Assembly (NCBI GenBank): GCA_019309115.1
Contig: JAFDGW010000023.1
Coordinates: 1-40,284 of the forward strand
DNA length: 40,284 bases
Source: Deltaproteobacteria bacterium
Lineage (GTDB): Bacteria; Desulfobacterota; Syntrophobacteria; Syntrophobacterales; Thermodesulforhabdaceae
Direction of reading: 5' to 3'
The position numbers and the translations under genes were made by a program. Each line of letters opens with the position of its first letter. The stretch's first letter is position 1. Positions 1,282 to 13,439 of the stretch are shown in pieces. The notes below the pieces were generated by a model. It saw only the letters and a list, made by a program, of their open reading frames with translations. It ran no database searches and had not been told where the DNA came from.

Positions 1282-2811
1282 TCATTCTCTGTGTCCTGGT
1301 CCCAAAAGGTCCGTGACCTTTTTAACGGGCTGGAAAGTTTCAGCGGGGACTTCAACAAAAACGGTCAACCACCGTGCCATTGAACCATTCCACAATCCGG
1401 GGTGCTCCAGCACCTTTATAGGTTTCCCAAGATAATGCTTTTGGGTGATTATGATTGCGTTCGGATTGGTATAACGATGCAGGTCATAATTTTGACCCTT
1501 GAAGTCTCTAAGCGAACAAACAATGTCAACGGGGTTAAAGTGAGTGCTGGATTCCCATATCTTTGCTTGTTGAGGGTTGTGCATGTCTACTTGCGCTTTT
1601 TCCACGATTTGCCTGGATGTGCTACCATCTTTTTCATTAACCCAGAAAGGTCCCCCTCCGGGTGCCCCAACATTGGGTACCATGCCACAAACCCGACGTG
1701 GGCGATCGAGTAGTCTCTTGAACAGGAATGCGTGCTCACTAACACGCGTGCTGGCATATTCGTGCGGTAAAGAAATGTCCCATTTTTCGCAAATAAATTC
1801 AGCTTTTTCGTTTCCTTTGAGTGGATCTTTGTTCAGGGTGTCCAGCGCATCTCTAATATCATTGTCCAGTTCCACCAGAATTCCCCCTAGTATTTTTTTC
1901 CATTTCACCACGAGCGTTTTCAATGTGTCAGGCACAACGTTGTCTATGTTTTTTATGAAAACAATATCCCCCTTAAGTTTGTTCAAATTGGCAAGCAATG
2001 ATCCGTGTCCCCCTGGACGAAACAGCAGCCGACCATCCGCATCACGTACCGGCCTGTTTTTTTCGTCCACCGCAGGGGTATTTGTAGAGGGGCTTTGCAG
2101 AGAAAAGGTAACATCAAGATTATATTGATTATATTTTAGCTTTACTTCTTCAAGGGTTTCTTCGAATTTCTTCCACCATTCTGGTGTAACCGTGAAATGC
2201 AAACGGCATTTATTGTCACCATCCCGAAGATATGGAATCGCCTCGATGATTTGTTCTTCAAACGCTGTTCTTAACTCCGATCCATAGCGGTGAAATGGAA
2301 TAAGTGCTTTGGGCAGCAAACCGAATTCAAGATCTTTCAATATTATTTCACATAGTACTTTTAATGGTTCCTTTCCAATTATAAACTCATCGATGGAAAA
2401 CCCTTTATCAGAACACTTTTTTTCAATTAACGGATAAAAGGCGAAATTTTTTAGGTTTTCGAAAAAGAGGATAGCGTCATTATGACCGATTTTTTTTAAG
2501 TCCTGTAGAGTCTGATTGCCACCTAGCTTTACCACCTCCCACAAGCATTGGAACATTCTGGTGGCGGCTCCAGAGGCCGGAACGAATTTCGCCATACGCC
2601 CTTTCACCATTTCCTTTTCGTAAAGGGCGATGTAGCGATCTATTTCTTCGCTGTTCAAACGCAGTATGCCATCTCCTACGGTACACGGACGATTCAGGTC
2701 CAAAAACCAGTCGTTTTTTTTAAAAAGTTCAAGATAATATCGAAAAGTCTGTTCACTTATGTTTATTTCCGATAGTTGTTTTATATCAGCTTCTGTCGGC
2801 ATCCATTGCAT
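1282..2811 (-). CDS. DUF4301 family protein
   Basis: This 509-aa cytoplasmic protein resembles the DUF4301 family, which has no firm function. Family-like features are the N-terminal segment KFVPASGAATRMFQ (about residues 75-88), which resembles the phosphate-binding loop of nucleotidyltransferases, the central FRPGGHGSLLANLN (about 265-278), and the C-terminal segments GMVPNVGAPGGGPFWV and FNPVDIVCS. Length and organisation fit the family. The start is the ATG at 2811 with a strong Shine-Dalgarno (GGAGGAAG). A sugar-phosphate nucleotidyltransferase-like role has some appeal from the N-terminal loop, but that is inference only. No neighbour points to a pathway. Confidence 0.85.
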   Translation of the reverse strand: MQWMPTEADIKQLSEINISEQTFRYYLELFKKNDWFLDLNRPCTVGDGILRLNSEEIDRYIALYEKEMVKGRMAKFVPASGAATRMFQCLWEVVKLGGNQTLQDLKKIGHNDAILFFENLKNFAFYPLIEKKCSDKGFSIDEFIIGKEPLKVLCEIILKDLEFGLLPKALIPFHRYGSELRTAFEEQIIEAIPYLRDGDNKCRLHFTVTPEWWKKFEETLEEVKLKYNQYNLDVTFSLQSPSTNTPAVDEKNRPVRDADGRLLFRPGGHGSLLANLNKLKGDIVFIKNIDNVVPDTLKTLVVKWKKILGGILVELDNDIRDALDTLNKDPLKGNEKAEFICEKWDISLPHEYASTRVSEHAFLFKRLLDRPRRVCGMVPNVGAPGGGPFWVNEKDGSTSRQIVEKAQVDMHNPQQAKIWESSTHFNPVDIVCSLRDFKGQNYDLHRYTNPNAIIITQKHYLGKPIKVLEHPGLWNGSMARWLTVFVEVPAETFQPVKKVTDLLGPGHRE

Positions 2812-2933
2812 AATCTTCCTCCATAATTATGCAGTCCAATCTTTTTCTCGTAACTTACCAGCCGGATAGATAACAAATTTTGATGGGCTTAAGGAATCAA
2901 TAATGAACCTACGTTAGGACTTGTGGAGCTCTT

Positions 2934-5900
2934 TCATTCATTTGCAACTTTTAAGAAATCCTGTTCTTCGCAAAAGGCGCTTATTTTTGCTCTAATTTGA
3001 GCGTCTGTGAAACACTGAAGCTCTATCGCTCGGGCAGGGCATTCCGCCATGCAGGCTCCACAACCCTGACATATAGCCGGGTCAATTCTAATGGCTGACG
3101 CGATGTCTCCTGTGACCGATGGTGCTCCGTACGGACATACACGCAAGCACGACAGGCACATACTGCATCCGGACGGATCCACTACGGCGATCCGCCCTCC
3201 CACGGTCATATAACCACGACTAACGAAAATTGCTGCCTTGGCTGCAGCAGCTTTCGCTTGATCAATGCACTCTTCCAGAAACTTGGGTCCTTGAGCGGCT
3301 CCAGCCAGGAAAATCCCCGCACTTGCCGTTTCCACCGGTTTAAGTTTGGGATGGGCTTCCAAGAAGAATCCATCCGGATCAAGGCTAAGCTTGAATATCT
3401 TCGACAGCAATTGATGATCTTCATGAGGTTCCACTCCAGTACTGAGGACAACAAGATCCGCGGCCAAATTGATCGATTCCCTTAGGGTTGCATCGACAAA
3501 AGAAACCATCATTTTTCCGTTAGTTTTGTAAACTTCTGGATACCCATCTTTTTCATAATCGAACCGGAAAAAACGTACGCCCATTTTTCTAGCCTGGAGG
3601 TACAATAATTCCCGTTTTCCAAATGTTCTCATATCTCTGTACAGGATGGTCACATGCGCCTCCGGAAATTTTTCTTTAAACCATATTGCATTGGCTACTG
3701 CAGTGGTGCAGCATATGCGGCTACAATAGCTGTTATGGACATCACGTGACCCGATGCACTGTATCATGACCACGTTTCTGATTGAGTCAATGTACGGATC
3801 GTTTGTTGCCAGAGCCTTGTGAAACTCACGCTGGGATAGGACGTAACCATTGCCTTTTTTCCTGTATTCATTGGCTATGTATTCCCTCGCGCCTATAGCA
3901 ACAACAGTGGCACCGTGATGCAATTCGAGCCTCTTACCTTCTTTTTCGATAAGACTTACAAAATCTCCCGGTCGGCCACCCGTTTGAATTATGTTGGCAC
4001 CTAGGTGAACCTCTATGAGCGGATGTTCTGTAACCTTGTCAATCAATTCCTGTAAAAACTTCTGAACATCCTTTCCCGAAGGATGTCTGTATAACCATCG
4101 TTTTGCATGGCCTCCCAGCTCCCTTTCCTTCTCTATAAGAATCACTGGTATGTTTTGATTTGCTAGCACCAGAGCAGCGGTCATTCCCGCTGGGCCGCCC
4201 CCCACAACGAGTACCCGCTTGAGGACAGGGATTTTCAGGCCTTCAATCGGTTCGAGAAAACAAGCTTTTGCTACGGCCATTCGGACCAGATTTTTTGCTT
4301 TTTGAGTAGCAAAATGCGGGACTTCGCCATGTACCCATGAACACTGATCACGTATGTTTGCCATTTCAAATAGGTATCGGTTAAGGCCAGCTTTTTCCAG
4401 TGCATTCTGGAAGAGGGGTTCATGGGTGCGGGGTGAACAAGAAGCGACCACGACACGGTTGAGTTTGTGTTCTCGTATAGCCTCGACAATGTGTCCTGTA
4501 CCATCCGTTGCACAGGCGAAGATAAGATCTGTTGAATAAACAACCCCGGGCAGACTTTCAGCGTATTTTACCACTTCGTTCACATCAACCACTCCGGCAA
4601 TGTTAATCCCGCAATGACACACAAAGACACCAATCCTTGGTGGATTTAGCGGTATTTTTTCCGATTCAAAATCCCCTTTGTTCAAGTTGCCGGTCTCAAC
4701 CTCCGAAGAGGGTGGAAGAAGCAAAAGCTTTTGAACGGATGCAACAGCCGATGAAGCCTGAGTGACTGAGTCAGGTATATCCTTTGGGCTTTCAGCCGTG
4801 CCACAGACAAAAACACCTGGCAAATTGGTTTCAGTAACGAGCAGGGGGTCTGTTTGAGCAAAGCCGTAGTTGTCTGTTGCAATACCGAGTCTTTCGAGCG
4901 CACTTTGAGCTTCGGCAGAAGGTTCAATGCCCAGAGATAGCACAACAAGGTCGAAGACTTCTGTTTTCACCGTATTGGATTCTTCGTCAAAAAAGGTTAC
5001 TTCTAATTTTCCATCTTCTGGTCTTTCTACCACGTGTGAAATGCTTGCCCGAATGTACCTGACGCCATAATGTTCCCGTGCCCGCCTAACATATCGCTCA
5101 AATCCTTTGCCCATCGCCCTCAGGTCAATAAAGAACACGGTGGTATCGGTCCAGGGGTCATGTTCCTTTGTAACGATTGCCTGCTTGGTCGCATACATGC
5201 AGCAAACGGCAGAGCAGTACTCACGGCCGACCGAAAGATCTCGTGACCCAATACATTGTATCCAAGCTATTCTCTGAGGATGACTTCCATCGGACGTTAA
5301 AACCACCTGGCCATGGGTGGGTCCAGAAGCCGAAAGAAGCCTTTCGTATTCAAGACTGGTGATAACATTGGCAAATCTTCCGTAACCGTACTCCTGTTTC
5401 TTAAGCGGGTCGAAAAGCTGGTACCCCGTTGTAACAATGACTGCTCCAACTGACAGGGTTTGTTCTTCTGGTAGCATATTGTGGTCTATCGCTTTGGCCA
5501 TGCAAACTTCTTCGCACCTACCACATTCACTGCAAATTCCACAGTCCAGGCACCTGGATGCTTCAGCTATCACTTCTTCTCTGGAAAGCCCCAAAAAAAC
5601 TTCATCAAAGCTGGATTTCCTAACATTTGGAGGAATTTTCTTCTGCCGTTTCCTGGGAGAATTGGGAAGTTTTCTGAAGGGTTCCTGAACAGCAAGAATG
5701 CTTTCTCTTCGGCCTTCTCGAAGGTCAGTGCCCCTGAGAAAGCGATCAATTGACGTTGCTGCTTCTTTGGCCGTTCCAACGGCCTGAACGACTGACGATG
5801 GACCTACCACCACATCGCCTGCTGCAAAAACACCTTTCACAGATGTTTCAAAGGTTAGGGGATCCACGATTATGGTTCCCCATCTCGAGAGAGCAGGGCG

Positions 5901-7430
5901 AAATGCCGGTTCTTCCTGTTCTATAGGTGACGTGTCCGTTCGTTGCCCTATGGCAATAATAACCGTGTCTGCTTCCAGATTGAATTCACTACCTCCAATG
6001 GGGATAGGGCGTCTTCTTCCGCTCTCGTCTGGTTCACTCAATTCCATGCGAATGCAACCGACTCCTTCGACCCGATCTTTCCCGATGATTTCCGTGCACC
6101 CCGTCAGATACTCAACACGAATGCCCTCCTCCGCAGCCATTTCAATTTCTTCCGGTTCTGCCGGTATCTCCTTCCTGCTCCTGCGATACAGAACTGTAAC
6201 CTTTTTCGCTCCAAGCCGGATCGCCGTTCTGGCAGCATCGAAGCCGGTATTGCCTGCACCGATTACAATGACTGTTTTTCCGAAAACATGTTTTTTATCG
6301 GGATTTTTCAGAAACTCTATGGCGGGCAACACACCTTTTAGGTTCTCTCCGGGTAAGTTATGTTCCAGGGGTTTTTGAGCACCCGTTGCTATCAGAATAG
6401 CATCGTAACCATCTTCTTTCAGACTTTTTAAGGAAAAATCTTTACCCCACCGAACGCCCATTTCTAGTTCAATTCCACCAACACCCAGAATAGTGTCAAT
6501 TTCCCTTGAAACGATTTCCTTGGGGAGTCTGAAAGAGGGGATTCCATACTTGAGGAGCCCTCCAGGTTCGTCGTGTGCATCGAAGACGGTTACGTCATGT
6601 CCTTCTATTGCCAAGTAGTAAGCTGCACTAAGACCGCCTGGGCCGGCGCCTATTATGGCCACTTTCTTTCCCGTTGGTTCCTTTCTCGGTGGAATATAAG
6701 GCTCGTATGAGTAAAGATCCAGATCGGCCACAAAACGCTTAAGATCTCTGATGGCGATGGGTTCATCCTGAGCACCTCTGAGGCAGGCTTTTTCGCAAGG
6801 GCGATGACAGATTCTTCCACATACTGCCGCAAAAGGATTGCTTTTCTTTATCAGCTTCAGGGCTTCACGGAATTGTCCTCTTCGTATCAATGCTACATAT
6901 CCATGAACACTTATACCGGCTGGACAGGCAGCCTTGCATGGGGAGATACCTGTTTTATCGATAGCATAGGACGACGGAACTGCCTGGGGAAAGTGCTTGT
7001 AAATTGCCCGGCGCTCATTCATACCCATGTTAAAATCTGCAGGTACATCCACTGGACATACCTTTTCGCATTCACCACAGGCTGTACACCTGTTCTCGAT
7101 TACATAGCGAGGACGTCGCAAAACCCTTAGTTTGAAATTACCCGCCGAACCCTCCAACGAAACAACTTCTGTTCTCGTCAGAATGGTTACGTTAGGATGG
7201 TTTGCCACTTCCAGAAGTTTTGGGGATAGCATACACGTTGAACAATCATTAGTTGGAAACGTTTTATCAAGGCGGGCCATATTACCACCGATACTTATAT
7301 CCCTTTCTATAAGAAAAACCCTATACCCGCCTTCAGCTAGGTCGAGTGCACTTTGAATTCCGGCTATACCTCCGCCAATAACGGCAACAGCGTGATTGGG
7401 CATTGAGTTTAAAGAATCCTGTTGTTTCAC
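2934..7430 (-). CDS. hdrA: HdrA-GltD-HdrA fusion flavoprotein, electron-transfer subunit
   Basis: A 1498-aa iron-sulfur flavoprotein with two HdrA-type units and a GltD-like insert. Residues 12-125 begin the first HdrA unit (FAD loop GGGIAG at 19-24, CxxCxxCxxxCP at 115-126). Residues ~160-570 are like the small subunit of glutamate synthase: an Fe-S N-terminus (C165, C169, C204, C208, C212, C216), an FAD loop GAGPGG at 261-266 and an NAD(P)H loop GAGNTG at 391-396. A cysteine cluster (627-643) leads back to HdrA sequence up to ~905. A second HdrA unit runs 930-1498, with VFVCHCG (935-941), FAD loop GGGPAG (1077-1082) and two ferredoxin motifs (1422-1433, 1454-1465). Start GTG at 7430 has GGGAG 9 bases upstream. 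In HdrABC complexes HdrA carries the flavin that splits electrons. The GltD part suggests NAD(P)H as a partner (inference). Confidence 0.93.
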   Translation of the reverse strand: MKQQDSLNSMPNHAVAVIGGGIAGIQSALDLAEGGYRVFLIERDISIGGNMARLDKTFPTNDCSTCMLSPKLLEVANHPNVTILTRTEVVSLEGSAGNFKLRVLRRPRYVIENRCTACGECEKVCPVDVPADFNMGMNERRAIYKHFPQAVPSSYAIDKTGISPCKAACPAGISVHGYVALIRRGQFREALKLIKKSNPFAAVCGRICHRPCEKACLRGAQDEPIAIRDLKRFVADLDLYSYEPYIPPRKEPTGKKVAIIGAGPGGLSAAYYLAIEGHDVTVFDAHDEPGGLLKYGIPSFRLPKEIVSREIDTILGVGGIELEMGVRWGKDFSLKSLKEDGYDAILIATGAQKPLEHNLPGENLKGVLPAIEFLKNPDKKHVFGKTVIVIGAGNTGFDAARTAIRLGAKKVTVLYRRSRKEIPAEPEEIEMAAEEGIRVEYLTGCTEIIGKDRVEGVGCIRMELSEPDESGRRRPIPIGGSEFNLEADTVIIAIGQRTDTSPIEQEEPAFRPALSRWGTIIVDPLTFETSVKGVFAAGDVVVGPSSVVQAVGTAKEAATSIDRFLRGTDLREGRRESILAVQEPFRKLPNSPRKRQKKIPPNVRKSSFDEVFLGLSREEVIAEASRCLDCGICSECGRCEEVCMAKAIDHNMLPEEQTLSVGAVIVTTGYQLFDPLKKQEYGYGRFANVITSLEYERLLSASGPTHGQVVLTSDGSHPQRIAWIQCIGSRDLSVGREYCSAVCCMYATKQAIVTKEHDPWTDTTVFFIDLRAMGKGFERYVRRAREHYGVRYIRASISHVVERPEDGKLEVTFFDEESNTVKTEVFDLVVLSLGIEPSAEAQSALERLGIATDNYGFAQTDPLLVTETNLPGVFVCGTAESPKDIPDSVTQASSAVASVQKLLLLPPSSEVETGNLNKGDFESEKIPLNPPRIGVFVCHCGINIAGVVDVNEVVKYAESLPGVVYSTDLIFACATDGTGHIVEAIREHKLNRVVVASCSPRTHEPLFQNALEKAGLNRYLFEMANIRDQCSWVHGEVPHFATQKAKNLVRMAVAKACFLEPIEGLKIPVLKRVLVVGGGPAGMTAALVLANQNIPVILIEKERELGGHAKRWLYRHPSGKDVQKFLQELIDKVTEHPLIEVHLGANIIQTGGRPGDFVSLIEKEGKRLELHHGATVVAIGAREYIANEYRKKGNGYVLSQREFHKALATNDPYIDSIRNVVMIQCIGSRDVHNSYCSRICCTTAVANAIWFKEKFPEAHVTILYRDMRTFGKRELLYLQARKMGVRFFRFDYEKDGYPEVYKTNGKMMVSFVDATLRESINLAADLVVLSTGVEPHEDHQLLSKIFKLSLDPDGFFLEAHPKLKPVETASAGIFLAGAAQGPKFLEECIDQAKAAAAKAAIFVSRGYMTVGGRIAVVDPSGCSMCLSCLRVCPYGAPSVTGDIASAIRIDPAICQGCGACMAECPARAIELQCFTDAQIRAKISAFCEEQDFLKVANE

Positions 7431-7458
7431 TGCTAGTACTCCCGTAGCTTCAACATCC

Positions 7459-8286
7459 CTATGAAGTCAGCATTCTTTCCACCTTGTTTATAAGCGGTAG
7501 TGGATCGATGAAGTGACGTTTGAGCCACTTTTTCTGCCGTTCAAGGCCAAAAGCAAGGTTTATGAGTTCAGTGAAATAAAAAACCGGTAAGATCTTGGCA
7601 CCAGTGGGAAACATATCCAGGTTGGCCTGGCACATCTGGCAAGAGACTACTATGCAGTTTGCTCCAAATGCTACCGCCTTGTTGTGAAGTTTGGTCACAA
7701 GTACTTCCACAAGTTTAGGCCTAGTGATAGCATGACTGGCACCGCAGCAGTCAGTTTTGTGGGGCCATTGGATAACATCCACACCTAGCCGTTTCAGCAG
7801 GGTGTCCATGTTTGTAGGATTTTCTGGCTCTTTTGCGTCCGTGATCGCGGGCGGCCTCTGTACAACACAGCCATAATAGCAAACTGCCCTAAGCCCCAAA
7901 AGTTTCACTATTACCTTTTGGCTTATGCGCTCCAACATGTGTGGTGATGATAGATAGGCCAGCAGGTCGATGACTTTAACGGTTTTTACGAAGTCGTGAC
8001 CTTTTAGTAAGGCTTGCTTGCCGGCAGTCTTCAGCCTGTTAAAGCACAAAGCACATGGCACCAGCAGATCACACTCTTGCTCATAAGCCAGCCTGAGGTT
8101 GTGAAACGGAAGTTGAAATGCTGCTTCACTGTCTATACTATGAGCAGAGCTTGCTCCGCAACAGATCCAGCCTTCCAGTTCATCAATATTCACACCAAGC
8201 TGGTCAAAAACCGCCTTTATAGAATCGTAATAATCGCGTGCAGTCCCTTCCAGAGAACACCCCGGATAAATGGCAACTCTTCTCAT
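7459..8286 (-). CDS. hdrB: heterodisulfide reductase-like subunit B (two CCG domains)
   Basis: A 275-aa HdrB-type protein. It has two complete cysteine-rich CCG domains: C10, C42-C43, C78, C81 and C140, C180-C181, C216, C219. In HdrB this pattern binds two noncubane [4Fe-4S] clusters where disulfides or related substrates are reduced. I place the start at the ATG 8286, giving MRRVAIYPGCS, because family members begin just before the first YPGC. A longer frame back to a TTG at 8334 is open. The gene overlaps the end of hdrC by 83 bases in another frame, which is unusual. It is followed 28 bases later by hdrA, so the order is hdrC-hdrB-hdrA. The real substrate cannot be read from sequence. Confidence 0.92.
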   Translation of the reverse strand: MRRVAIYPGCSLEGTARDYYDSIKAVFDQLGVNIDELEGWICCGASSAHSIDSEAAFQLPFHNLRLAYEQECDLLVPCALCFNRLKTAGKQALLKGHDFVKTVKVIDLLAYLSSPHMLERISQKVIVKLLGLRAVCYYGCVVQRPPAITDAKEPENPTNMDTLLKRLGVDVIQWPHKTDCCGASHAITRPKLVEVLVTKLHNKAVAFGANCIVVSCQMCQANLDMFPTGAKILPVFYFTELINLAFGLERQKKWLKRHFIDPLPLINKVERMLTS

Positions 8287-8860
8287 CTGATTCAAGCCCG
8301 CCTCGAGTTTGTTTGCCATTCCTTCTACCATCAACCCCGATCGGAAGAATTTTCATGCGACCTTTTTTGAAAAGCTCAAGCCCTTTAAGAATGTCTCGTT
8401 GCAAAGAGCCGTCCTTCAGTTTTTTTCTGAGCACGGAAGGTTGCAAGATGTAAAGCATCATAAGGCTGGGTTCGTGTATGCGCCCCATTTTATTGACGTT
8501 CTCCAGAAAAATCCTGTGGAAAAGTCGAATATCTTCGACAAGGGGATTGACACGACCTTTTCTAACTGCCAGCTCTTTTAATCTGTCCATGATACCTGCT
8601 ATATCTACTCCGTTGGGGCAGCGCGTTGTGCAAGTCTGGCAGGATGAACATATCCATATGGTTTTACTTGCCAGTGCACGGTTCAGGTATCCCAAATGAA
8701 TGAAGCGTATTATTTGGTGGGGATAGATGTCCATGGCAAAGGTTAAGGGACATCCATTGGTGCATTTAGTACACTGAAAACACATAAGAGGGGACAAACC
8801 CCTCTTCTCGAAAAACTCTTCCGCTATGCTATAATCGACGACTTCCATATGCAAATTCAT
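8204..8860 (-). CDS. hdrC: heterodisulfide reductase-like subunit C (two [4Fe-4S] clusters)
   Basis: A 218-aa ferredoxin-like subunit that carries electrons between HdrA and HdrB. It has two CxxCxxCxxxC motifs (C27, C30, C33, C37 and C71, C74, C77, C81). The ATG at 8860 overlaps the stop of the GcvH-like gene as ATGA, which supports translational coupling; GGAGG lies just upstream. An upstream start at 8902 is possible but less likely. The last ~43 residues, after ILPIG at 171-175, read out of frame through the start of hdrB. They look unlike an HdrC tail, so the true or ancestral C-terminus may involve a frameshift near a run of four G. Confidence 0.9.
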   Translation of the reverse strand: MNLHMEVVDYSIAEEFFEKRGLSPLMCFQCTKCTNGCPLTFAMDIYPHQIIRFIHLGYLNRALASKTIWICSSCQTCTTRCPNGVDIAGIMDRLKELAVRKGRVNPLVEDIRLFHRIFLENVNKMGRIHEPSLMMLYILQPSVLRKKLKDGSLQRDILKGLELFKKGRMKILPIGVDGRRNGKQTRGGLESDEKSCHLSGVFSGRDCTRLLRFYKGGF

Positions 8861-9759
8861 TCCTCCGTGCGGAGTAAGAATTTTTTTACCAGCGTATCCC
8901 AACCTATCCGCTTCAGATTTCCATAAATGTCGTTTATCACTTCACCTCCCGTTGCAGCAAGTGACATTCCACCATAAACCTCCTGCACCATAGCATCCAG
9001 TTTGTTGGCTTCTTCCCTAAAAAAGTTTTTTGCTTCCTCGCCGTAGAATAAACTCCCCTGAGCATTAAGCTTGCGAATTGGTTCCAGCATGATAAGCCAG
9101 CCTTCTTCGTAAGGATCGTCTTTAACAAGGCTAGGACTTTGCATTACTCTGTGATTTCTCGCAACCACAATGCCTTCAACAGGCATCAGAAAGGGAGCTA
9201 TTTTTTCATCTCGACGAATGAGCCAGCCTCTTGTATTCTCTTTTACCTTCGTTCCAACTTCTGGTAACCGTATTTCCGAGATGAAACCAAGCAACCTGTG
9301 GGAAAAATCGTCAATTCCTATACGTATTAGACCTCCATGCTCGTACCTGAGCCAACTATGGCCAGGATGGTAATAATAGTCATCAGCCACCGTAAAGCCC
9401 CGAATCTCTGACTTTTTTACCTCATGACCTGCTATGGTTTCGTGATAAGCCTGCATGAGCTGGTCAAACTCGCAAGTTGAGCAGTCATAAGCATTGGAGC
9501 AGTACTTGACCGGAACATCCCCCGACATCATATAACGGCAGGCCCTTTCACTATGAGGTTTGCGCATCATCTCGTCCCGCCAGCTGGTGGTCTTTTTTCC
9601 TTGAGAGAGCGCCTTTTGCATGGCGCGATCAAAGGAGCAGGTTGTACAATCAAAGGCATTGTGGCAAAGTTTGAAATTAACCACTCCGGCCTTCATCCAT
9701 ATGCATTCGTCTTCTCTAATTCCAAAGATGACTCGTTTTGTTTTGCCCTGCTTTTTCAT
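8857..9759 (-). CDS. GcvH-like domain protein with two N-terminal cysteine repeats
   Basis: This 300-aa protein has two parts. Residues 19-41 and 74-96 are a repeat with the cysteine pattern Cx12Cx5Cx2C (C19, C32, C38, C41; C74, C87, C93, C96), each including KxC-x-NA-aromatic-DC; it could bind zinc or an Fe-S cluster. Residues ~118-236 resemble the H protein of glycine cleavage (HSWLRYE, RIGIDDF, LPEVGT, then VKDDPYEEGWLI). At the lipoyl site the aligned residue is E185, with K186 one step off, so classical lipoylation is doubtful. It is the first gene of a hdrC-hdrB-hdrA operon and has a strong Shine-Dalgarno (AAGGGGG) and a sigma-54 promoter upstream. H-like lipoyl carriers (LbpA) accompany Hdr proteins in sHdr sulfur oxidation; the parallel is inference. 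Confidence 0.85.
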   Translation of the reverse strand: MKKQGKTKRVIFGIREDECIWMKAGVVNFKLCHNAFDCTTCSFDRAMQKALSQGKKTTSWRDEMMRKPHSERACRYMMSGDVPVKYCSNAYDCSTCEFDQLMQAYHETIAGHEVKKSEIRGFTVADDYYYHPGHSWLRYEHGGLIRIGIDDFSHRLLGFISEIRLPEVGTKVKENTRGWLIRRDEKIAPFLMPVEGIVVARNHRVMQSPSLVKDDPYEEGWLIMLEPIRKLNAQGSLFYGEEAKNFFREEANKLDAMVQEVYGGMSLAATGGEVINDIYGNLKRIGWDTLVKKFLLRTEE

Positions 9760-9794: not shown

Positions 9795-9811
9795 ATGCAA
9801 TTCTAGTGCCC
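9795..9811 (-). promoter_or_regulatory. sigma-54 (-24/-12) promoter of the gcvH-like/hdrCBA operon
   Basis: On the minus strand the sequence GGGCACTAGAATTGCAT gives GGCAC, five bases, then TTGCA, with exactly ten bases between the GG and GC pairs, as in the consensus TGGCACN5TTGCW. Only the first base differs. Transcription would start near 9785, about 25 bases before the ATG at 9759. An NtrC-type activator with an intact GAFTGA loop is encoded divergently next door. Confidence 0.78.
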
Positions 9812-9886: not shown

Positions 9887-9915
9887 TTGACGAATTTTTA
9901 TACTGGGTGTTTAAA
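9887..9915 (+). promoter_or_regulatory. possible sigma-70 promoter of the kinase/regulator pair
   Basis: TTGACG (9887-9892) and TTTAAA (9910-9915) are 17 bases apart, and the Shine-Dalgarno of the kinase gene lies about 15 bases farther on. The -10 match is weak and the region is AT-rich, so this is a tentative call. Confidence 0.28.
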
Positions 9916-9940
9916 AATACAACAGAGCAGGAGAACAACC

Positions 9941-11521
9941 ATGGATGAGAAAAAAAGAGCTAATTTAAGTCAAACTGCTGAAAGACCGTTAAAGATTGCC
10001 ATAATTGGCGGGGGGCGTAGGTGTCGCTCGCTTCTTGAAATGATAGACGCGGAGCGGTTTCCCTGGTTGAATGCTGAGATTGTTGCGGTTGTGGAGCCAA
10101 ATCCTAATGCCGTGGGCGTTCAGCTTGCTAGGGAAAAGGGTATTTTTACAACGGCGAGGGTGGAAGACCTTTATTCTATTGACTCTCTAGATTTAGTTAT
10201 CGAACTTGCGGGAAAGGAGGATCTGTTAAGGGGATTTTTAAAAAGGGGTGGTACTCCCAAGGTACAGATTCTTGGTACGACCATTTCGAGGCTTTTCAGT
10301 GATCTTATTCGCCTCCAAGAAGAGCACCTTTTTAGGGAAAAGCAGCTCGCACTTATAGAGAGCATAGCAGAAACCATATTTTCCAGCATCAGGGATCGCG
10401 TGATGATAATGCGACCGGACATGAAAGTTCTGGACGCCAACAATGCCTTGCTTGAGTGGTTAGGTATGGGGAAGGACGATGTTGTGGGCAAATACTGCTA
10501 CCAGATAACACACAGGTTCACTGAGCCGTGTTACTGCTATGGAATTCACTGTCCCCTTATGGAGTGTCTCGAGACGGGGGGAACGGGTCATTCCATCCAC
10601 GAGCATTCGGAAAGGGACGGTTCAACGAGATACTACGAAATAAGCACGGTACCCCTGCGGAATCCTAAGGGTCAAATCGAGGTGGTTCTTGAAATAATTC
10701 GCGATATTACGGACGAGCTCGAACGGAGAGTGGAGCAAAAAACCAAGGCTCTGAAACAGGACCTGGCTCGCCTAATTCACGAGGACAAAATGATAGCCCT
10801 TGGAAAACTGGTAGCAAGCGCCGTGCACGAAATCAATAACCCTCTCTCGGGCATACATGCCCTTGCAAAGTTAATGAGGAATCGCATGGAGGAAGACAAA
10901 CCACTTAGCGAGGACGAGCGAAAGCAATTCTGCTATTACCTTCAGCTAATAGATCAGGAATCTGCAAGGTGCAGTAACATTGTGGGAAATCTTCTCTCAT
11001 TCTCACGCCAGCAGAAGTTGGAAAAAGCCTACTTTAATGTCAACGAAATCATCAGGAAGGTTGTTCTCCTCAGTAAACACAAGATGGAACTTCAGGATAT
11101 TTCGCTGAAATTGGAACTTGAGGAATCCATTCCTAACGTTTTTGGAGATCCGGGACAGATTCAGCAATGTCTGGTTAACCTTGTATTCAACGCCATGGAA
11201 GCCATGCCAAACGGTGGGACTCTTACCATTAAGACTCATTATGAAGAACACAGGGAACGGGTCAGGATTGACGTGATAGACACTGGCGTGGGAATACCGA
11301 AGGAGATTATATCCCAGATATTCGAACCCTTTTATTCCACAAAGAGCAAAGACAAAGGAGTAGGGCTGGGGCTCTCTGTAGTTTACGGGATAATAAAAGA
11401 ACACCGGGGAAGTATTTACGTGGTAAGCCAGGTTGGAAAGGGATCGGACTTTATCGTAAGGCTTCCATGCCAGGAACATTCGGAAAGGGAAGAGGGGAAT
11501 TTGAACAATGGCAAATGCTAG
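9941..11521 (+). CDS. sensor histidine kinase with Rossmann-like and PAS sensor domains
   Basis: A 526-aa kinase with no membrane segment, so probably cytoplasmic. Residues 17-125 look like an NAD-type Rossmann domain (IAIIGGG at 19-25, then VVEPNP at 50-55), an unusual kinase input. A PAS domain follows at ~135-260, with cysteines at 186, 197, 199, 204 and 209 that could hold a metal or sense redox. The kinase core has the phospho-acceptor H296 in HEINNP, the N-box around N414, DTGVGI near 447 and GVGLGLS near 473. The start is the ATG at 9941 with AGGAG about 7 bases upstream; the in-frame TTG at 9887 lacks a well-spaced site. The gene overlaps the response regulator by 14 bases and is divergent from the Hdr operon, its likely target. 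Confidence 0.93.
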   Translation: MDEKKRANLSQTAERPLKIAIIGGGRRCRSLLEMIDAERFPWLNAEIVAVVEPNPNAVGVQLAREKGIFTTARVEDLYSIDSLDLVIELAGKEDLLRGFLKRGGTPKVQILGTTISRLFSDLIRLQEEHLFREKQLALIESIAETIFSSIRDRVMIMRPDMKVLDANNALLEWLGMGKDDVVGKYCYQITHRFTEPCYCYGIHCPLMECLETGGTGHSIHEHSERDGSTRYYEISTVPLRNPKGQIEVVLEIIRDITDELERRVEQKTKALKQDLARLIHEDKMIALGKLVASAVHEINNPLSGIHALAKLMRNRMEEDKPLSEDERKQFCYYLQLIDQESARCSNIVGNLLSFSRQQKLEKAYFNVNEIIRKVVLLSKHKMELQDISLKLELEESIPNVFGDPGQIQQCLVNLVFNAMEAMPNGGTLTIKTHYEEHRERVRIDVIDTGVGIPKEIISQIFEPFYSTKSKDKGVGLGLSVVYGIIKEHRGSIYVVSQVGKGSDFIVRLPCQEHSEREEGNLNNGKC

Positions 11522-12860
11522 GATATTGGTAGTGGACGATGAGCTCATCGTCCGAGAATCTCTAATGGGATGGCTTAGAAAGGCTGGTCATATCGTGGAT
11601 TGCGCCCAGGGTGGTCTGGAGGCTTTGGGCAAGATAAGAGAAACCGAGTATGATCTGGTGTTTCTTGACATAAAAATGCCCGACATGAGCGGAATAGAAG
11701 TGCTCGAAAAGATATGTGAGTGTTCGCCCGAAACGATGGTGATCATGATAACGGCCTACGGTTCTGTGGAGACCGCGGTGGAGGCGATGAAACTGGGGGC
11801 AAGCGACTATTTAATGAAGCCATTCGAGCCTGAACATCTTCTTGTACTGGTGGACAAACTTTTAAGACAGAAGCGTATAATTGAGGAAAATATCCTGCTA
11901 AAGGAGCAAGTTGCCGCCCGACGCGTGCGTTATCAGGATCTGGTTGGGGCATCTCCTTGCATGCAGAGGCTTTTTGAATTGATTGAAGAGGTTGCTGCGG
12001 TGGATTCCCCTGTGCTTATTCGCGGAGAAACCGGAACGGGAAAAGAACTGGTTGCCAAGGCCATTCATGCCAAAAGTCGTAGGCGTTACGGTCCGTTCGT
12101 TGCTATCAATTGCGGGGCTTTTCCAGAGAATCTTCTGGAGAGTGAGTTGTTTGGGTTTGAAGCTGGTGCTTTTACCGGAGCGGTTAAGACCCGTAAGGGG
12201 AGAATCGAAATGGCAGAAGGCGGTACGCTTTTCCTTGACGAAGTGGGTGAGATACCGTTGAAGATGCAGATAGACATGCTCCGAGTGTTGGAGGAAAAAA
12301 GGTTTCAGAGGCTTGGTGGTAGGGATTTTATATCTGTTGACTTCCGCTGTGTTGCCGCAACTCACGGAAATCTGGAAGAAGAAATCCGCAAGGGTAACTT
12401 CAGGAAGGACCTATATTTCAGACTGAATGTTATAGAGATCGAAGTACCGCCGCTCAGGGAGCGAAAGGAAGACATTGGATTGCTCGCTGAGTATTTCCTC
12501 TCACGGTTTAGGCGTGAAACAAACAAATCAGTAATGGCAATTACCAAGGATGCGATTGAGTTCCTCGAATCTTACGACTGGCCGGGAAATGTCCGTGAGC
12601 TGGAAAACGCAATAGAGAGAGCTGTGGTGCTTGCAAAAGACAAGGTCCTTACGCGCAAGGACTTTGCTTTTTTGACCCGCCAACCCGATGTTTTGGACGA
12701 AGGAGACAAAACACTGGAGGCCGTTGAAAAACACCACATTGCCAGGGTCCTCGAAGAGTGTGGGTGGAATGTGAGTAAAGCTGCCAGAATTCTCGGTATC
12801 AATAGAACCACCCTTCACAACAAAATAAAAAAGTACAATCTCAAAGATCGCCAGCAGTAA
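11508..12860 (+). CDS. NtrC-type sigma-54-dependent response regulator
   Basis: A 450-aa regulator with receiver, AAA+ and Fis-type DNA-binding domains. The receiver has the acidic pair at D10-D11, phospho-acceptor D54 (LDIKMPD) and K104. The AAA+ domain has Walker A GETGTGKE (173-180), the sigma-54 contact loop GAFTGA (220-225) and Walker B LFLDE (241-245). The C-terminal helix-turn-helix includes NVSKAARILGINRTTLHNKI. All active residues are present, so it should activate sigma-54 promoters once phosphorylated by the upstream kinase, with which it overlaps. The sigma-54 promoter found at 9795-9811 makes the gcvH-like/hdrCBA operon the obvious candidate target (inference). Confidence 0.96.
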   Translation: MANARILVVDDELIVRESLMGWLRKAGHIVDCAQGGLEALGKIRETEYDLVFLDIKMPDMSGIEVLEKICECSPETMVIMITAYGSVETAVEAMKLGASDYLMKPFEPEHLLVLVDKLLRQKRIIEENILLKEQVAARRVRYQDLVGASPCMQRLFELIEEVAAVDSPVLIRGETGTGKELVAKAIHAKSRRRYGPFVAINCGAFPENLLESELFGFEAGAFTGAVKTRKGRIEMAEGGTLFLDEVGEIPLKMQIDMLRVLEEKRFQRLGGRDFISVDFRCVAATHGNLEEEIRKGNFRKDLYFRLNVIEIEVPPLRERKEDIGLLAEYFLSRFRRETNKSVMAITKDAIEFLESYDWPGNVRELENAIERAVVLAKDKVLTRKDFAFLTRQPDVLDEGDKTLEAVEKHHIARVLEECGWNVSKAARILGINRTTLHNKIKKYNLKDRQQ

Positions 12861-12872
12861 GGCGTATTTAAG

Positions 12873-13439
12873 GTGCCAGCTCAACCTCCGACAATATTGA
12901 TACTTCCTCTAGGCAGACTGGAAACGCTGGTTCTGCGTGTGGTAGCCGGCTATATCCAGGGGATTTTAAAGGTTCCCGTGGACATAGGAGAAACCGTTGA
13001 AGTACCACAAGAAACCTACATCCCGGATCGACATCAGTACGACGCTGGCCTTCTCATTCGCTTCCTCCGGGAATTTGCGCCGTCCTACCGCTGTGTTCTT
13101 GGCATTACCTCGGTGGACATCACCTTGCCGATTTTTACCCACGTCTTCGGCGAAGCCGAACTAGGCGGTCATGCCGCCCTGGTGTCAACCTATCGCCTCG
13201 GAAAGGATACTCACGGGAGGAGAGTTACCGATGCGGTTTTTTACGAGCGAGTTGCAAAGGTTGCCCTTCACGAAATCGGTCATGTCTTTTCTCTTTATCA
13301 TTGTGGTGACGGAAAGTGCGTTATGCGATTCAGTGCGAAATTAGATGGCTTAGATGAAATTCCCCTTTATTTTTGTGATCGGTGTTATTTTCTACTTCGG
13401 AGAATGATATTCAGGAATCGCGCAGGGGAAGATACCTGA
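12873..13439 (+). CDS. amzA: archaemetzincin-like zinc metalloprotease
   Basis: A 188-aa protein of the archaemetzincin family (peptidase M54). The zinc site is HEIGHVFSLYHC: H133, E134, H137 and H143. The four-cysteine zinc knuckle is also there (C144, C149, C168, C171), with the Met-turn M151. The family motif has Gly at the eighth place of HExxHxxGxxH; here it is Ser (S140). Cellular substrates are not known for bacterial members. The start is a GTG at 12873, only 12 bases after the response regulator, so it may share that transcript. No signal peptide is seen, so it is probably cytoplasmic. Confidence 0.9.
   Translation: MPAQPPTILILPLGRLETLVLRVVAGYIQGILKVPVDIGETVEVPQETYIPDRHQYDAGLLIRFLREFAPSYRCVLGITSVDITLPIFTHVFGEAELGGHAALVSTYRLGKDTHGRRVTDAVFYERVAKVALHEIGHVFSLYHCGDGKCVMRFSAKLDGLDEIPLYFCDRCYFLLRRMIFRNRAGEDT

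Follow-up and report, generated by a model that had tools for sequence, protein, structure and literature searches.

A GcvH-like protein family with a degenerate lipoyl site, encoded beside an archaemetzincin, a sensor kinase, and a sigma-54 regulator in Thermodesulfobacteriota

The H-fold surface of GcvH docks several partners in turn, and proteins annotated as GcvH-like are commonly taken to be lipoate carriers. LbpA, which is encoded alongside the Hdr-like subunits of the sHdr sulfur-oxidation pathway, is one such protein; its lysine is strictly conserved, it has a dedicated ligase, and a Cys lies near either end (PMC6067878). We compared with these systems a 300-aa protein, here labeled GCVHx, encoded from an ATG start on the minus strand at positions 8857 to 9759 of a 40,284-nucleotide deltaproteobacterial stretch of DNA (the window), by combining ORF, Pfam, alignment, and structure-model evidence. 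Relative to GcvH (PF01597, TIGR00527), GCVHx has the whole H fold and retains its His/Trp and Gly/Asp framework; however, it lacks the lipoyl lysine, adds an N-terminal domain with two Cys4 motifs and a C-terminal extension, is unaccompanied by lipoate machinery in its genome, and scores 65.9 bits against the TIGR00527 equivalog, below the cutoff of 115.85. In contrast to LbpA, it has neither the lysine nor a dedicated ligase, carries eight N-terminal Cys residues, and belongs to a dsrA-bearing genome of the sulfate-reducer type. Hence, GCVHx is not an LbpA, although its position beside Hdr may be similar. The GcvH-related model NF045810 (GcvH_rel_desulf), named for Desulfo- bacteria, gives it only 31.9 bits against a cutoff of 150 and, with 167 positions, cannot span both the Cys domain and the extension. 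A neighboring gene encodes an archaemetzincin with the full zinc-protease motif (NF033823/PF07998), which at 141.2 bits falls just below the NF033823 cutoff of 145. A partial literature search that included sigma-54 regulon papers recovered no prior description of GCVHx or of a link between GcvH-like proteins and archaemetzincins, nor any report tying archaemetzincins to sigma-54 regulators. GCVHx may put the H-protein fold to a use that dispenses with lipoate and has no earlier description.

The GCVHx family and its lipoyl site

The H-protein fold domain (positions 9013 to 9375, minus strand) matches Pfam GCV_H over residues 129 to 249 (E = 3e-22), and an AlphaFold model built with 49 sequences has a pLDDT of >90 over most of this domain and superposes on the Escherichia coli H-protein (PDB code 3a8i; Z = 18.1; 1.5 Å over 128 residues). 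As an earlier note on this DNA had described, the domain is preceded by two exact Cx12Cx5Cx2C repeats, C19-C32-C38-C41 (positions 9637 to 9705, minus strand) and C74-C87-C93-C96 (positions 9472 to 9540, minus strand). It is followed by a helical extension (positions 8860 to 9012, minus strand) that is absent from canonical GcvH. The Cys region is poorly modeled (pLDDT mostly 36 to 60), and we therefore left its structure uninterpreted; none of the fold matches listed covers it, which in itself proves nothing. Given the low confidence of the model here, it is a guess that the two Cys4 knuckles bind metal, most likely zinc in a structural role.

When the protein is aligned by HMMER with the pea, Thermus, and E. 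coli H-proteins, no gap falls in the lipoyl hairpin; E185 matches the lipoyl lysine and K186 the position after it (E185-K186, positions 9202 to 9207, minus strand), and the tip of the β-hairpin in the model falls at D184-E185 (protein numbering is used throughout; model numbers are one lower). Thus, the placement given in the earlier note holds, and the structural check that it had proposed for K186 finds this residue one past the lipoyl position, which is occupied by E185.

Of the 247 genomes in a phylum sample, 201 gave relatives at E ≤ 1e-8, and many of these relatives are canonical GcvH. The specific GCVHx type, defined by a cutoff of our choosing (E below about 1e-22), is present in 63 genomes, as counted from the table. 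A genome scan yielded 80 named loci, in records labeled Thermodesulfobacteriota or deltaproteobacterial or, for a few, just "Proteobacteria"; because these loci are related by descent, counts over them are not independent. In an alignment of the 80 relatives with the window protein, the eight Cys residues are invariant or nearly so (80 to 81 of 81; the second motif in all 81), and this retention marks the motifs as more than chance occurrences. Further conserved positions include several His, Trp, Gly, and Asp residues of the H domain and the GG, D, W, and FL positions of the extension; short members that lack the Cys domain still have both the H fold and the extension. The lipoyl column, on the other hand, is degenerate (G 39, D 12, E 9, S 9, N 4, K 2, and others), with Lys in just 2 of the 80 relatives and in 7 sequences of a broader set of about 97; Lys occupies position 186 in 11 of 81 sequences. 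This family-wide degeneracy shows that the site has decayed rather than been swapped for one new residue. We accordingly rejected any residue at this position as a lipoate substitute, including a glutamate-specific replacement, for E185 is itself unconserved and gives no support to a specific replacement chemistry. In place of the possible variant of the Hdr-carrier theme raised in the earlier note, these alignments point to a family of H-fold proteins in Thermodesulfobacteriota that no longer carry the lipoyl lysine, and not to a one-off variant of LbpA.

Lipoylation machinery is likewise missing. Neither LipA nor an LplA/LipB-type ligase (PF21948) was found in the host metagenome-assembled genome (MAG), which is 96% complete and in which the controls were detected, and no lipoate ligase was found in three same-family genomes or in five other carriers of the GCVHx family. 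The sole other GCV_H match in the host genome is a 71-aa biotin-carrier-like protein, and a second, canonical GcvH was rejected on that ground. With no ligase in the host and its three relatives, lipoylation of GCVHx is very unlikely. That a conserved family appears to keep the fold without the cofactor, even in organisms devoid of lipoate ligase, implies that Hdr-GcvH neighborhoods should not be read as a sign of lipoate-based sulfur oxidation.

A kinase, sigma-54 regulator, and archaemetzincin unit

Divergently from GCVHx, the plus strand encodes a sensor histidine kinase (positions 9887 to 11521) with an N-terminal Rossmann (NAD-type) domain (about 9983 to 10290) followed by PAS, HisKA, and HATPase domains; an NtrC-type sigma-54 response regulator (positions 11508 to 12860); and the archaemetzincin (M54; positions 12873 to 13439), whose HExxHx5HCx4CxM...CxxC motif is intact. 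Across the family, an archaemetzincin gene lies within 6 kb of the GCVHx-type gene in 72 of 80 loci, and all three genes are present in 24 of the 29 loci with full flanks. This association with archaemetzincin extends across the GCVHx family tree, in three gene orders, and the zinc-protease motif (HExxH...H plus Cys4) is intact in all 110 distinct neighboring archaemetzincins, the window's included. At the genome level, archaemetzincin occurs in 59 of the 63 genomes with the specific GcvH type versus 34 of the other 184 (p about 1e-27, uncorrected for phylogeny and with the type defined by our own cutoff). By gene-context comparison, then, the strongest link of GCVHx is to this unit and not to Hdr. 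The earlier note, which did not mention the unit, had placed the gene in an Hdr operon; this setting is confirmed in the window, but Hdr is not the dominant conserved association of the family.

Pfam returned no matches on the N terminus of the kinase. A profile search placed acetaldehyde dehydrogenase NAD domains best (E = 8e-5), and the model of this region resembles Rossmann NAD enzymes (PDB code 1nvm; Z = 11.0; 2.0 Å over 97 residues), from which we infer that the domain would bind NAD. The PAS domain (positions 10382 to 10717) contains a segment rich in Cys and His, HRFTEPCYCYGIHCPLMEC, through which a second redox or metal signal might enter.

A predicted sigma-54 −24/−12 promoter, GGGCACTAGAATTGCA (positions 9796 to 9811, minus strand), lies 52 bases ahead of the GCVHx ATG and reads GGGCAC-N5-TTGCA; same-family relatives have TGGCAC-N5-TTGCT at −20 to −55. 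The window contains four −24/−12 matches against 2.65 expected, so that a single match alone is not significant and the call rests on position and conservation: sites scoring at least 12 lie upstream of 68% of the family genes, compared with rates of 1.4% for shuffles and 6% for control ORFs. A −24/−12 element upstream and a sigma-54 activator nearby together predict sigma-54 dependence, and RpoN is encoded in the host genome; given the conserved element and RpoN, GCVHx is likely a target of the adjacent regulator. An intergenic alignment of four same-family genomes, too diverged and with its −24/−12 region misaligned, yielded no nameable enhancer site.

Hdr coupling and the proposed function of GCVHx

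On the same strand, downstream of GCVHx, are genes for an HdrC-like dicluster ferredoxin (positions 8204 to 8860), an HdrB-like CCG-domain protein (positions 7459 to 8334 by ORF bounds; the true start may be further in), and a 1,498-aa fusion of HdrA, a GltD/NfnB-like module, and a second HdrA (positions 2934 to 7430), an architecture that suggests an NAD(P)H-linked bifurcating Hdr. The stop codon of GCVHx overlaps the ATG of hdrC as ATGA (positions 8857 to 8860), with GGAGG ahead, in keeping with the Hdr operon membership recognized in the earlier note. The gene immediately downstream encodes HdrA in only 14 of 80 loci, so a role with Hdr cannot be the whole function of GCVHx. In the family tree, the HdrC-HdrB arrangement is restricted to the window's own clade, while a downstream HdrA recurs in several clades; in other genomes, the GCVHx domain follows HdrA-FlpD and a molybdopterin-binding-like segment within a single fusion protein, and the loci of some relatives have HmcB/HmcC-like genes or a type III sulfide:quinone reductase nearby. 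Hdr coupling thus appears clade specific yet recurrent. The HdrA-FlpD fusion, the HdrA genes downstream in several clades, and the ATGA overlap support physical work with Hdr, and the redox fusions and neighbors as a whole support work of GCVHx on redox complexes beyond regulation.

We give a probability of roughly 0.5 to the reading that GCVHx is an H-fold docking subunit for Hdr-type redox complexes, induced through sigma-54, free of lipoate, and equipped with two metal-binding knuckles; its degenerate lipoyl site, invariant tetracysteine pair, conserved gene unit, and sigma-54 promoter come from comparison among relatives. It is possible, though we would hold it only tentatively, that GCVHx acts mainly in signaling by binding the kinase or regulator, with the Cys knuckles sensing metal or thiol redox, the archaemetzincin ending the signal, and Hdr being one regulated cargo. 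The greater steadiness of kinase, regulator, and archaemetzincin as neighbors and the gene's own sigma-54 promoter, which would suit a feedback loop, speak for such a role, whereas the fusion of the domain to HdrA-FlpD and its co-transcription with hdrCBA in the window speak against it, as does the finding of no kinase or regulator fusions to the domain in the loci examined.

The earlier note had suggested a possible carrier or sensor in which a metal or thiol group replaces lipoate. What survives of this is the non-canonical lipoyl site, a probable metal- or thiol-bearing N-terminal domain, and Hdr as a plausible partner; nothing at residue 185 replaces lipoate, and the Cys repeats belong to a domain of their own, off the hairpin. 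In its remaining form, a redox-active thiol or metal center of the repeats would shuttle electrons or sulfur to HdrB, as the eight invariant Cys residues, the Hdr operon setting, and the precedent of LbpA as sulfur carrier for the sHdr complex (PMC6067878) might lead one to expect; we consider this unlikely, since short members without the motifs retain the H fold, the C-x2-C within a four-Cys setting resembles a structural metal site, and residue 185 varies across the family. A lipoylated LbpA- or GcvH-type protein, modified via K186 or by an imported ligase, could be argued from the lysine beside the site and from a MAG completeness of only 96%, but we rejected a lipoylated carrier as highly improbable in view of the degenerate site, the rarity of K at position 186, the ligase missing from all four same-family genomes, and the missing LipA.

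For the docking-subunit reading, the following sequence of events can be proposed. The kinase would sense NAD(P)(H) or redox state and phosphorylate the regulator, which would switch on GCVHx and, in the window's clade, the translationally coupled hdrCB-hdrA operon. GCVHx would then act as a lipoate-free docking or scaffold subunit, its two Cys4 knuckles holding a probably structural metal (most likely zinc) and its H-fold surface docking onto an HdrA-type flavoprotein. Some component of the circuit, GCVHx being one candidate, is probably trimmed or turned over by the archaemetzincin. A wider possibility is that of an undescribed sulfate-reducer circuit: a kinase that binds NAD would act with its regulator to induce a lipoate-free H-fold protein, this protein would dock on Hdr-, Hmc-, or SQR-type complexes, and a dedicated archaemetzincin would clear it. 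This reading is speculative and short of probable. If true, it would make the H-protein fold a cofactor-less, regulated docking subunit and give the bacterial archaemetzincin a physiological role. The fixed neighborhood of kinase, sigma-54 regulator, and archaemetzincin offers a testable handle on the regulation of electron-bifurcating Hdr complexes, as well as on bacterial archaemetzincin function.

Several redox neighbors of the family have features of their own. In 29 cases (loci L043, L045, L062, L128, L129, and others), HdrA-like genes near GCVHx contain an in-frame TGA within NDC[AS]M-U-IxSPKL, a probable selenocysteine, and the window's own HdrA has Cys at this position. In locus L092 (positions 1529 to 4551), a Tat-type HmcB-like FeS protein and an HmcC-like membrane subunit are flanked by GcvH-like proteins, one of which has a stretch at its N terminus that resembles a membrane anchor. 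In locus L066 (positions 4100 to 9214), a run of four tandem GcvH-like paralogs adjoins genes for a type III sulfide:quinone reductase of the selenoprotein subtype family and for a DUF1641 protein.
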